The notes under the pieces: model-generated | The model's input: the letters and a program-made list of their open reading frames with translations, nothing else | What the model was told of the DNA's origin: nothing | Databases searched by the model: none | Shown here: positions 24,149 to 61,783 of the stretch, one piece after another | Position numbering within the stretch: the stretch's first letter is position 1 | How the letters are laid out: each line of letters begins with the position of its first letter | Assembly: GCA_029717555.1 (NCBI GenBank) | Contig: JAMDHS010000011.1 | Coordinates: 62,001-126,000, forward strand | DNA length: 64,000 nucleotides | Direction of reading: 5' to 3' | Source: Peribolospora baueri | Taxonomy: Eukaryota > Basidiomycota > Peribolosporomycetes > Peribolosporales > Peribolosporaceae | Translations under genes and position numbers: made by a program

Positions 24149-27100
24149 TCAGAACCACGGCGCCCATAGGGTATCCTGCATGGCCAAGTTTTGAGGGTTA
24201 GTGGCACGAGACATGAGATCAATGATTGATTGACAGGCCGGTGTAGTGCCATTTGGCTGTTGAAAGGCAATATAAGCGCAGCAAGTCAGAATCAACACTC
24301 TTATTTCTACGTACAGACCAATTCGAAAAGGAACGCACCTTTTCTCGTTCAAGCTTGCATGACATGAGCTGTGCCTTTTGAATGATCTGCTGGATCGCCT
24401 GCAGCGTGCAGTCACGCAAAGCACCTTCCGGAGGCTGCTTATGATTGACGTTGAACCAGACCATTACTTCGTCGCGGATGAAAATGCTAAGCCGATGCTC
24501 CAGGTCGTAGAGCTGCGGCGCACAGAAGGCCTGGTGTCAGCGCGAGATAAATCGCAGATCGTGTCGGAAAGCAGCAGCAACTCACCTCTGGCTCAGTCAA
24601 GGAGCGACCTAGCGCCATCAGAGAGCTTGTAAGCAAACCTTCTATTCCCACTGGCGTGATGAAGTTTTGGACATTCGGCGTCAGTCGGAATGGCACGCTG
24701 TCGCTGCTCGCGAAGTTAGGGCCTGCAGGCGAGAAGGCTGCGTGCGATGCGATGGGACGAACAAACGTCAATACGTGATCGGTATCCCGCTTTCAACTAT
24801 AGCAGGCCGACCCACATGGCAAGATGTCCGACATGAAGACCTGGCCGTTCGCCCGAGATACGTGCAACCGAACGGGCAAACGGTTGCTGATGGTGAAGAT
24901 GTAGGTCAAGAATATGATCGACGCCATTTGCAGAGTGAACTGCTTGCGCATGAGCCAGAGATCCGTCGGCGACGCCATTGACCGCCACATGAACTGATGG
25001 TTTGCATGATGGTCACGGAAATGTTTAGCATATGGGAAGAGACAGTGATTAATGGAGAGCATGGGGAAGGCTCACCTTGCTGAGGACATTGTCTGGTACC
25101 ATCTTCGTACTAATCTCGTCCATCAACTCCATACGCAAGTTGATGAGGCCAGCGCGCTGTTCATGGGGAGCAAGAAGGCATTAGATAGAGCCACGTTAGA
25201 AGTGTCGTCCTGGCGCTGGACTCACCCCCTTTGACTGATCGAAGGAGGCTTTGAGCTTCTCAGTGAAAGCGATGACAGGGTCGTCCTTGCTCATGCCGAG
25301 CTCCTCGCAGTGCTTCTCGTAGATGTCTTGAAGACTGACGAACGAGCTCTGACTTTCCATCAGGCGAATGTTAGGCGCTAGAGGAATAGCCGCCGGCACA
25401 TGGAAAGATAAGCTCCGCTTGCGAGTCTCCTTGCGACTTTCAAGGACACTGAAGAAAAAGGATGGGTTAGTTTAGTTGAAATAGCTTGGGACTACTAATT
25501 CACTCACCCATTCAGAATACGCAGCATTTGCATGTTCTTCTCTTCTCGACGCGAATATCTGGGCGCCGGAAGCTGAACAGAGAACGAGTGCGTGCTACCC
25601 TTGTGGCCGAGAATGGTGAGGCGGCGAGTACACGTGCCGCCGGAACGCACGACTTCGTACTTCGGCAGGATTCGACTGATTTTGACGAAGTCAGCGTTGC
25701 TATCGTCCATTTTGAGGTATTGGCCAGGCACCTCAACCTCGTCAAACTTTTGGTGCTGGAACTCAACCAAGTAGTGACTGGAGTGCTCCAGAGGCTGCCA
25801 GCGCGGCCGTCGATCGAGGATTGCCTCGTAGCGGTCACGCCAGCGCTGGAGGCGCTGTACGTAATCGCGCAATGTAGGTTTGCTTTTTACGAAGTCTTCC
25901 TCGAACGCAGCCTGTGATAAGGAATTGAGTGATGTGAGCCTTTGTGCGAATCCACATGCCCACAGGCAGAACAAGAAGCAGAACTCGCCTTCAAACCAGC
26001 AGGATGTAAATTTTCCGCGAACCGAGCCACATTTGCGGCTGATGCGGGCGCCAGCATGCCATTGTCGTTTTGGCTCAAAGCGCGGCCCACATATTGCTGC
26101 CGGCCAATAACGAGACTTCTGTCAGGTTTACCACGTAGAAGTTTGTGCAACAAAAATGACGACTCACTTGCAGGCCATCGTTCAGAAGGGCATTTGTCAG
26201 GCGATACATGTCCTCGTCCCCCTGCGCTTTGAAACGCTGTTGGATCTGGTCGACCATGCTCTCCATTGTAAGGGCGAGAAGCGGAAAGGCGGTCTTAAGG
26301 ATGTTAAGGATCTCGTCCACCAGCTCCCACGGCTGTCTCGGTACAGCGGTTGGCGTCCCAGTGGAAGAGCTAGTTGGCGGAGAGCTCCCAGCGGGCTGAC
26401 CTGCAGTTGGAGCCGACGTCGGGGTGGGAGTAGCAGCAGCAGACGACGTAGCCGGAGAGCTACCTGCAGCCTGGCCAGCGTTCGCAGTGGCGCCATTGCG
26501 TGCCGCCATTTGCTGAGCCATGATCAGCTGATTGCGGCGCACGTTGGCGAAATCTTCCTTCGTCGTCCGCAACTGGAAATACAGAGCCTGGGAAGGAAAG
26601 AGCATGCAGACGTGTAAGTAATCTCTTCCTAACGTCCAAGGCTCGCGATACTCACCTGAGGATACGTCTTGGCAATCCTCATCAGAATCACGCGAGCGTA
26701 CTTTGCCTCTCGCTGCGAGAGACTCTGCAACAGTTGCGGAATGAAGGCGATCCAGTTCCATACTGGCATGTCCCCCTTGTACCCTTCAAACGCCTTGGAC
26801 ACGGTCCCAGCCTGGTCATCGAAGCCCAGGAACCAGAGGATGCGGATAAGGAGCTTGTAGACCTTGGAATTCTTGTAGAGGCCGGCCGCTTGCAAGTAGC
26901 AGCTGACGGCGTTCCCGGCGTAAGCCATTTCGGTCGGCTTCTCCCGAAAGATGCGGTCATTGTACCGACCCCATTCCATCCAAGCCTTGGCCAAGTTCAA
27001 GTCCATCTGAATTGCAGTCGCAAAGGCCTGGTTTGCGTCGTCGTTCAATCCGAGTTTGGCCATGAACATGCCCTTGAGCGTGAAAAACTCGGCTTTTTGA

Positions 27101-58782: not shown

Positions 58783-60698
58783 TCACTCCACAGCAGCGTC
58801 GCCAGTACCACTGCTCTCGCTCTCTATCAGCTCGCTCTTTCCGTTCGCATCCCTACCACGCCTCCTAAGCCTCCTCTTCTCCTCCTTCGCTTTCTTCCTC
58901 GTCTCCTCCTCAACGCCCACGCTTTCGTCCTGAAACTTCCTCCAGTTCTCTTCCAACCTGTCCACACACTCCTCAACTGCCCATCCCCGAACTTTGGCGA
59001 TAACGCCCATGATCGACCACACCCGCTCTGCGAGATTGGACGCGGAGTGCCAATCGCTTTCGGCTAGCAGTCGGGTGGGAGAACAGGCGAGGATGGCGGA
59101 GGGAAGGGAGGCGGAACGGGAGTTGATGGTGCTGGAATAATACAGAAATGACGAAGGAATGAGCGTCGCCGTCCTTCTTTAACCCTGGAAGCATCGTGCT
59201 CGCTCTCTGCCAACTCAGGAAGCGCACGTGGAGAACGAGCAGAAAACGTTAGAATGAGCGGCCTACGTGCAGGGAACGGGGGGCGTCGGAACGAAGCAGA
59301 AGTCAGGACGAGGCGTCGCAGTAGCACCAGAATCGCCGACCTATTTCCAATCTCATCCGAACGTCCTTCACGCCACTCACCTGCAAGCGCTGGATAGCCT
59401 GAGCGCTCATGGTGCAGCTATGCAAGTCCACATTGCACCTTCGTTCCCACTCCGCTCCCCATCGTTTCTTACATCGCGCGAAAAGGTCGATGGTGGCCCC
59501 AGGCGCGCGGACGCTGTGTAGAGACACATTCCTCCCCAGTCGGAAGGCCACCTCCAGTTGGGCTTCTAGGATTACCAGTTGGTGCGAGAGCGGAGTTTGG
59601 AGGGAGGTAAGAGTGCGGCGGGATGGGTTTACGGAGGAGGAAGAAGAAGAGGCGGCCGGCGGAGCAGGAGGCGTGTAGGTGGAAGCGCCCGAGTCCAGCT
59701 CCGCATGCGTAGCCGGAGCCACACCCGCGGCTAGTCCGGCTTTCCCCAAAGCAGAAGAAAGCGGCGGTGGCTTGCGAGTGTAAGGGACCTCTGGCAGTCG
59801 GAATACTCTATCCAGCCCCACCTCTCCGAGTAAAGCCTCCGGGTGACTCTCGAGATTTCGTTCCAACGTCTGCAGGACGTCGAAAAGAGCTACCGGCGGA
59901 GGCAACTTCGAAAGGAGGCGATCTAGCTCTCCGGTGTCCAAAGAGGAATCTCCAGAAGACTGGAAGAGCGATAGGTAGTGCTCCTCTGCCGTAGGCGGTG
60001 GTGACTGAAGGCAAATAGTGTGAGCAAACCAGGGATGGTAGCCTGGACACGAAGGCGGAGACGCAGGAACCATTCGTTCGACAAAAATAAATCAGAAAAC
60101 TCAATACACAGAATCTGTGCACCGTTGACATGGCCCGTTAGGGTACCCGTCAGCTTACCAAAAGCCGGCACCACCTTTTCACCGTTCCTCTCGGCCAACG
60201 CCTTCACGAGCTCCTGATCGCCCACGGAGGTGGCCATCGCGCACACCTTGCCGAGTTTGACGTCCCTCATCTTCTCCGAAAGCGCTTCTACACACGCCCA
60301 TGGATCTGGGTCATCTGTGGGGTGGCAATGGGCTATAGATTTCACGGAGAGTCAAGTGGGAAGAAGAGTTGCCCACGTTACCCGACTGCTCGTTCACTCA
60401 ATGTAATATTGGTCATTTGCAGTTAACACCAATCGCTCACCCTGAACGACGATGGGATTGTCACAGGCCAAGGACAACAGAGAGGAAGGGGCATCAGGGA
60501 AGGCGAAGGGAGGAAAACCCTGTGAGTCCGACGGCTGCACTCTTCTCCTTTTCCACCACAGACCGTCTCGCGCGGTCGGATTGGAGCTTCGAAACCTCCG
60601 CCGCCACTCACGTCCACAAGCCTCTCCCACAAGTGATCCGGTGGGATGCTCAAAGGCGGTTCCTCCGCCTGGGTCCCGTCGCCATCTCGTGCACACAT
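58783..60698 (-). CDS. TatD-family metal-dependent hydrolase (Scn1-like)
   Basis: Predicted exons are 60698-60612, 60441 (one base), 60332-60159, 60042-59381, 59262-59228 and 59131-58783, giving 435 aa. The metal-binding motif D-A-H-C-H-P-T-D-D (residues 29-37) is rebuilt only if the single base at 60441 is inserted between exons 1 and 3. Further TatD-family blocks are G-Y-H-P-W-F-A-H, the L-H-S-V-R-A strand, N-V-F-C-S-F-S-T-T-I-N and L-L-A-E-S-D-W-H near the C-terminus. The C-terminus is a Lys/Glu-rich tail. TatD proteins are TIM-barrel DNases or hydrolases, and fungal Scn1-like members are named after a Cut9-interacting protein of fission yeast. An alternative 79-nt exon ending at the same donor would add 26 residues but separates the Asp from the His motif. 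Divergent from TBCA with a 240-bp gap. Confidence 0.85.
60441..60441 (-). other. Candidate 1-nt exon of the TatD gene
   Basis: On the minus strand the sequence reads CGTTCAG|G|GTGAGCG: a pyrimidine-rich acceptor, one G, then a canonical donor. Exon 1 ends at phase 0 after Asp (GAC) and the following exon starts CC-CAT-TGC-CAC, so one extra base gives Asp-Ala-His-Cys-His, the family's metal-binding motif. Confidence 0.55.
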
Positions 60699-60938
60699 AT
60701 TAGTGGTCCTTGATCGGAGGACGGGACATGTGAACGGAGTGGGCAATCTTAGTTGGAGAAGCATAACCACGCTTGATTCTACCGGAGATCGATCGCGCCG
60801 CAGCACGCTGTTGATTGCCGCCGGGTCAAGACGGTGCTCGACTTCAGAACGGACGCTCATCACGAAGGAAGGTCAGCGCGCTTCAACGAACACACACGCA
60901 CACTAGCATTGTCCTCGCTAACCCACAAACACTCCAGC

Positions 60939-61783
60939 ATGAGCGATCCCACCGCCATCAAGCGCCAGCTTACCATCAAGGCCAACGTCGTAAAGAGGTC
61001 AGTGGAAATGGACGAACCGCGCGCGCGTTCGCATCGAGTCGTCATCCATTGACCGTCTGTCGTCGTCGCCTTCCTATTCTCCGTCTCTCCCGCCTCGGCC
61101 TTGTATTCGCTCTCTCTGGTGAACATGGGTTCCATTTGCTGAACTTACGCGGAGACAGGTTGGCCAAGGAGGAGGTCGCGTACGAAAAGGAGGCGGAAGA
61201 TCAGCGGAAGAAGGTGGACAAGATGGTGGAGGAAGGCAAAGACGAATATGACGTTAAGAAGCAGGTGAGTCGGATTGGGACAAGACCAGATTGTGTTATC
61301 AGGTCATTCGTCCGGTGCCGCCTCCATTCGCTTTGAAACTGATTCGTCTTGCCGACTCTTTCCTCGCTCTTCCCGCTTTCCTTTCTCCCGTCCTCTCCCC
61401 ACTTATCCGCTTCCCCCTTAAGCGCGAGGTTCTTCAAGACTGTCTGCAGATGATTCCTGATTGCCAGAAGCGCCTCGCTTCCGCGGTCGGCGACCTCAAG
61501 TCGCTGGTGGTAAGTCGGCGTTGGCTTGTTGAGTCCCCGTGGCGGTTGCTCTAGGTGGTCGATCGGGACTCGCCACCGACGGCGCACACGTTGTGTTCTC
61601 TTGATTGTCTGACTTTCCCACGCCGGTTTTCTTGCCTTTTTATTATTCACGGCATCCGTCCCGTCCCATATCCCTTCTTCCGGTGCGCAGGAATCTCTCG
61701 ACACGTCGCTCGCCGAGACGGAGGAGTACAAGAAGGCCTTCGAGACTATCTCCGAGCTCGCCTCTCCTTCTGCTTCTTCCTGA
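60939..61783 (+). CDS. TBCA: Tubulin-folding cofactor A
   Basis: Exons 60939-60997, 61159-61264, 61423-61509 and 61691-61783 give 114 aa, the usual size of cofactor A (yeast Rbl2, 106 aa). It starts M-S-D-P-T-A-I-K-R-Q-L-T-I-K and continues as a charged three-helix bundle (R-L-A-K-E-E-V-A-Y-E-K-E, then V-L-Q-D-C-L-Q-M-I-P, then E-S-L-D-T-S-L-A-E-T-E-E). Cofactor A binds beta-tubulin and shields free subunits before dimer formation with alpha-tubulin in the cytosol. It lies about 50 kb from the alpha-tubulin gene of this window. The promoter is probably shared with the TatD gene. Confidence 0.9.

Follow-up and report, generated by a model that had tools for sequence, protein, structure and literature searches.

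Exons of a single nucleotide are represented in nuclear genes, among the matches listed in the open-licence literature, by plant APC11 and VPS55 and by Fusarium CYP621A; mitochondrial cases, including one from a fungal mitogenome, are also among those matches. In the available portions of the plant reports the exon is demonstrated in Arabidopsis APC11 (PMC4674806) and in plant APC11 and VPS55 (PMC8831610), being constitutive in APC11 and alternative in some plants in VPS55 (PMC4674806, PMC8831610). For plants it is also reported that read aligners may overlook exons of one base (PMC8831610), and in the Arabidopsis APC11 test reporter fluorescence was lost when the base was removed or doubled. 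The CYP621A exon is presented in the available part of its report as the first in a fungal gene, according to its authors (Nelson and Syed 2026, PMC12940212). Two kinds of closely spaced splice sites are also pertinent. Stwintrons, the spliceosomal twin introns of fungi, are described in the accounts available as abutting U2 introns removed in turn, and in the [D1,2] type the outer donor is interrupted by the inner intron after its first base. The usual recursive splice site is a zero-length AG/GT.

Here we describe a TatD-family gene in the window, a 64,000-nucleotide stretch of the genome of the basidiomycete Peribolospora baueri, in which the base G at position 60441 would form an exon by itself. 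The predicted exon belongs to the type already known from plant APC11 and VPS55 and Fusarium CYP621A; among the matches listed in the open-licence literature, none reported a TatD gene, or any nuclear gene of the Basidiomycota, with a one-base exon, and on Cryptococcus microexons the available text of PMC3990503 yields just a mapping setting. As the plant reports present them, APC11 and VPS55 likewise carry one base between two introns, the omission of which breaks the frame or alters the N-terminus (PMC4674806, PMC8831610), although in Arabidopsis APC11 that base is A rather than G (PMC4674806). According to the CYP621A report, that exon too lies in a fungal gene, consists of a G in AG/G/GT inside a conserved motif and closes a frame that would not close otherwise, and the whole intron, at 139 nt where the F. 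graminearum median is 56, is again unusually long; it differs in belonging to a P450 gene and in that its G is the central base of a Gly codon (PMC12940212). The plant exons are backed by reporter constructs, RT-PCR and RNA-seq (PMC4674806, PMC8831610) and the Fusarium exon, which occurs in 20 orthologues, by 18 RNA reads of two species (PMC12940212), whereas the TatD exon is predicted from the sequence.

The TatD introns would, as in stwintrons, abut and be removed in turn, but all four of their splice sites are whole at the outset, and one base would stay in the mRNA. We therefore rejected a stwintron reading: neither donor (GTGAGT, GTGAGC) and neither AG acceptor is split, no element is interrupted, and the C before the first donor and the G after the first acceptor leave no [D1,2] reading. 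From a usual recursive splice site the TatD site differs by the one intervening base.

Gene model and protein family

The proposed model comprises the following features, listed with the divergent neighbour of the gene.

60698 to 58783, minus strand: TatD-family gene, six coding exons in the proposed model
60612..60698, minus strand: exon 1, 87 nt, MCARDGDGTQAEEPPLSIPPDHLWERLVD, ending in phase 0; from open reading frame and donor
60442..60611, minus strand: intron 1, 170 nt, GTGAGT...TTCAG
60441..60441, minus strand: exon 2, predicted single-nucleotide exon G, first base of an Ala codon, in CAG/G/GTGAGC
60333..60440, minus strand: intron 2, 108 nt, GTGAGC...CTATAG
60159..60332, minus strand: exon 3, 174 nt, beginning (G)CC CAT TGC CAC, A-H-C-H-P-T-D
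60043..60158, minus strand: intron 3, 116 nt, GTAAGC...GTCCAG
59381..60042, minus strand: exon 4, 662 nt, with the GEVGLD, LHSV and DLHSC segments; from open frame and Pfam
59263..59380, minus strand: intron 4, 118 nt; donor CAG/GTGAGT at the 97th percentile, acceptor ACGTAG at the 30th
59228..59262, minus strand: exon 5, 35 nt, AAHSNVFCSFST, AAHSNVFCSFS(T), then TINSR
59132..59227, minus strand: intron 5, 96 nt, GTGCGC...TTCCAG; donor at the 19th percentile, acceptor at the 85th
58783..59131, minus strand: exon 6 with stop codon, AESD segment in the TINSR...AESD frame
60939..61783, plus strand: tubulin-binding cofactor A, gene model, Pfam PF02970 (2.6e-32)

Splice sites were scored with a small gene finder that was self-trained without transcripts on 262 kb of the organism's own genome (the window and 20 stretches) and models only GT-AG introns. 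Its last training pass used 288 introns (median 93 nt; commonest donor GTGAGT, 105 of 288), and the site models were built from those shorter than 150 nt. The 69 genes predicted in the final run comprise 371 exons; their 302 introns, short and about four to a gene, are the reference for all percentiles, a test set that overlaps the training set. The TatD gene was not called by the finder. Weak codon bias, a neutral coding score of exon 1 (-2.6) and negative intron-content scores (see below) mark this gene, which therefore rests on homology. No one-base exon occurs among the finder's 239 internal exons, though tiny exons carried no special penalty, and its sole internal exon below 7 nt has 2 nt and lies in Tra1. 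That exon, at 24587, is very probably false, as the preceding 51 nt read through in frame; these 51 nt also look conserved in Tra1/TRRAP.

Exon 1 runs from the ATG at 60698, which has an A at -3, to GAC ending at 60612, followed by GTGAGT at 60611. At the other end of the gene, exon 6 has a coding score of 8.9 in its own frame, the other two giving -31.5 and -31.9 (scored over 59133-58786). The 35-nt exon 5, with its GT-AG introns, restores the frame to TINSR...AESD, which the C-terminal end of the protein would otherwise lose. An exon of this kind is easily missed by annotation. A C-terminal frameshift in the gene was rejected, since this exon (59262-59228) closes the frame.

With the one-base exon the predicted protein has 435 amino acids and matches Pfam PF01026 (TatD_DNase) from residue 28 on with 83.3 bits (E 2.3e-23; gathering cut-off 27 bits). 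Exons 5 and 6 lift the score to this value from 57.4 bits for the protein cut after exon 4, and the piece from STINSR on, taken alone, has no TatD match in Pfam. By eye, the segments DAHCH, GEVGLD, LHSV, DLHSC and AESD follow one another in this order and presumably hold the metal ligands typical of the family, namely HxH, a Glu, two His and an Asp. The LVD at the end of exon 1 aligns with LVDCHCH of human TATDN3. In the five PDB TatD chains displayed among six matches to the human TATDN3 N-terminus, an Asp occupies the second position ahead of the first HxH His, one of these chains being the source of the query and two being alike over the segment.

The HxH motif marks group II TatD proteins, according to the available text of PMC10085689. 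As in the group II proteins TATDN3, YjjV and YcfH, D-x-H-x-H stands at the N-terminus and the domain is PF01026; unlike them, the 435-aa protein is interrupted midway by a long low-complexity insert and ends in a charged tail. We assign the predicted gene product to the HxH type (group II) of TatD-family metal-dependent hydrolases/DNases. It is probably closest to the Scn1-type fungal proteins. The DNA of the gene occurs once in the organism's 22-Mb genome, and no relatives were found in viral contigs. In a family search of the genome, the single TatD place among the matches listed was on contig C90, and the gene at 60698-58783 was not included; the listed place is a second TatD-like gene (L022, 1456-2397) that matches profile positions 101-203 and has LFLHSR and LMLETGGC segments.

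The divergent TatD and tubulin-binding cofactor A genes have start codons only 240 bp apart, the interval (60699-60938) probably being a shared promoter region. Downstream of the TatD gene, on the minus strand at 57864-57052, lies a gene that begins MFAARRALSSSLFVQ and seemingly consists of several short exons; by eye, its product may resemble a mitochondrial small-ribosomal-subunit protein. The Tra1 gene (36391-24149, minus strand) has about 3,640 codons in the model. Its long open reading frames match Pfam Tra1_ring, Tra1_central and FAT, and a frame of 1,585 aa matches Tra1_ring positions 1-1341.

Joining exon 1 to exon 3

A preliminary description of this DNA had proposed that exon 1 ends in Asp and that one extra base is needed to join it to the next clear exon, and coordinates and frames agree with this. 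On the minus strand, TATAG ends at 60333 and CC CAT TGC CAC begins at 60332. For the His-Cys-His frame of exon 3, 60333 is the only canonical entry, because an in-frame TGA lies shortly upstream with no AG between; exactly one base must therefore be carried over. The 279-nt gap between exons 1 and 3 contains CAG/G/GTGAGC, in which TTCAG ends at 60442, the G stands at 60441 and GTGAGC follows from 60440, just as the acceptor, single G and canonical donor had been read earlier. AG and GT thus flank a single base between two exons, which join in frame with that base and out of frame without it. Splicing through the G gives LVDAHCHPTD and so the Asp-Ala-His-Cys-His that had been foreseen, and skipping it gives 43 amino acids followed by a stop. 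The idea that the G rebuilds the TatD metal motif holds for the frame, the Ala codon and the adjoining Asp, but both His of HxH lie wholly in the exon that begins at 60332.

We enumerated 5,420 connections from an ATG to exon 3, 55 of them with a single intron, and ranked them by ab-initio path score. The one-base exon at 60441 came second (-14.8), behind a connection starting at 60416 (-6.7), and is the best of all 5,420 that keep the Asp before xHCH. Third, at -14.9, was the one-base exon reached from a later first donor, at the cost of the Asp; the 60441 junction with other start codons scored -21.4 and -22.0, and the next junction that keeps the Asp is another one-base exon, at 60519 (-24.7). 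Two further arrangements ranked lower overall and were rejected: an extended exon 1 (donor 60563), and a single long intron from exon 1 to exon 3, the join of which is out of frame. Pfam gave 83.3 bits for the one-base model, 78.7 for the start in intron 2, 78.1 for the 79-nt exon described below, 77.9 for the extended exon 1 and 70.0 for a protein with no HxH end, the differences between 83.3 and 78.7, 78.1 or 77.9 bits being modest.

The top-ranked connection supposes a different first exon, beginning at the ATG at 60416 inside intron 2 and joined by one 65-nt intron (donor TGA/GTGAAC) to give MTNITLTHCH. Its score, helped by having one intron fewer, is set against a donor at the 8th percentile, a C at -3 of the ATG, the replacement of the family Asp by Leu and the lower Pfam score, and it would turn both the LVD end of exon 1 and the strong CAG/G/GTGAGC into coincidences. 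We regard such a start as highly improbable.

The frame can be closed not by one base alone but also by a 79-nt exon (60519-60441) in place of the G, with the same donor and an acceptor CACAG at 60520, which would put 26 residues before AHCH. This exon is open and in frame, its first intron would have 92 nt, close to the median of 93, and the position weight matrix places its acceptor at the 39th percentile. However, the 40 nt before that acceptor are 30% pyrimidine, and positions -40..-14 alone 22%, values as low as which occur in 0 of 274 predicted introns (at least 60 nt) in either case. The only branch-like motif stands 3 nt from the intron end, the content of the exon is intron-like (+4.8) and not coding (-1.6), the conserved Asp becomes Gln with a lower Pfam score, and the connection ranks eighth of 5,420 (-20.8 against -14.8). 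The preliminary description had named this exon as the rival of its own reading; pre-acceptor composition and the lost Asp disfavour it, and we think it very unlikely.

A non-canonical intron, displaced by one base so that its ends are TG-AG or GT-TA, would be a further route to an identical mRNA, joining exon 1 directly to exon 3 by means of the G shared at both ends. It needs an odd intron end although canonical sites in the right frame exist; on this argument, as opposed to a score, we hold it to be extremely unlikely. The G at 60441 is instead probably spliced as an exon of this TatD gene, judging from sites, frame and family motif.

Splice-site strength and chance

Ranked against the 302 predicted introns, donor 60611 (GAC/GTGAGT) is strong, at the 75th percentile, with donor 60440 at the 66th and acceptor 60442 of intron 1 at the 44th; acceptor 60333 of intron 2 is weak (11th). 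Pyrimidine content over the last 40 nt of intron 1 is 0.65, near the median. The last 55 nt of intron 1 have no YTNAY branch motif; CTNAC in -55..-8 is missing in 175 of the 302 predicted introns too. Intron 2 has TTGAC 19 nt from its end. The intron-content scores of both, -6.6 for intron 1 and -5.9 for intron 2, are negative and count against the model.

The pattern AG-N-GT is common, with 1,597 occurrences in 524,818 strand-bases or about 0.85 per 279 nt. Both site scores are at least as high as observed at 1 of these 1,597 places, namely 60441 itself. This joint threshold was set at the observed scores, and lower ones are therefore given as well: at (acceptor, donor) scores of 4.0/6.0, 3.54/4.69 and 2.4/4.6 the number of places, counting 60441, rises to 2, 3 and 8. 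Five of the other seven at the lowest threshold lie outside predicted genes of the same strand and two in predicted exons. Predicted introns of at least 130 nt (10,608 nt in all) hold 18 AG-N-GT, none as strong as the 60441 site.

We also shuffled the 700 nt upstream 1,000 times, preserving dinucleotides, and looked for a motif modelled on the PROSITE TatD signature; the Pro-Thr of this protein departs from the final two positions of that signature. A one-base-exon route as good as the real one arose in 0 of 1,000 shuffles, and any route with the motif as good as the real one in 6; a one-base-exon route to [LIVMFY]2-D-[STA]-HCH, of any score, was present in 4. When site scores must exceed 0, the real sequence reaches [LIVMFY]2-D-[STA]-H-x-H by the one-base-exon class alone. 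The single-nucleotide exon put forward in the preliminary description is in this respect the best explanation found.

A base missing from the assembly at the exon 1 boundary would make a single 279-nt intron suffice, and the donor with an extra G in front would score 7.87, slightly above its present score. Such an error would reduce the uniquely strong AG-G-GT to a coincidence and leave an intron in the top 2% of lengths (2% of the 302 predicted introns have at least 279 nt). The boundary has no long homopolymer, and the frame of the nearby Tra1 gene is unbroken over 1,585 aa, so the assembly is not full of indels. An assembly error thus appears to us very improbable.

An origin of intron 1 as an introner or by duplication was rejected, a 501-nt query having matched itself alone in the organism's own genome. 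In blastn of introns 1 and 2 against the 262-kb sample, only self-matches fell below E 0.1; intron 1 gave five short matches with E 0.12 to 0.41. The two introns are not alike, their local alignment score being reached by 408 of 500 shuffles.

Discussion

We infer that the cell splices the TatD gene through the G, each intron being recognised on its own. Two ordinary U2-type introns, of 170 and 108 nt, would most likely be removed in turn by the spliceosome, simultaneous processing being hardly possible because the first acceptor and the next donor are one base apart. Removal of intron 1 first would leave GACG/GTGAGC, still a strong donor (ACG/GTGAGC scores 6.54 against 6.64 before); removal of intron 2 first would leave CAG/GCC, with the acceptor the same (4.80). 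Either order would yield GAC-G-CC, that is, Asp-Ala before His-Cys-His. As a strong donor remains after removal of intron 1, the site could act in recursive splicing, with which its predicted arrangement is compatible. A more far-reaching reading takes the G as both a real one-base exon and a mandatory recursive step, with intron 1 leaving first; failure of that step would produce a frameshifted transcript one base shorter, and the junction would serve as an on/off point for the enzyme. Under this reading, one-base exons may also recur in fungi wherever introns interrupt conserved motifs. This is conceivable, but we consider it rather doubtful.

As to how such an exon could arise, the Fusarium authors propose, in the part of their report available, that a cryptic AGGGT can make up for the loss of a base next to an intron (PMC12940212). 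The same history, base loss followed by such a rescue, would fit the TatD gene by analogy.

For the family, the predicted exon has a practical consequence, in that a gene model without the G forfeits either the catalytic N-terminal end or the conserved Asp of the TatD protein. Single-nucleotide exons show how small a unit exon definition by the spliceosome can reach. Finding one in a TatD gene, in a fungus other than Fusarium and once more as AG/G/GT in a conserved motif, would suggest independent origins.
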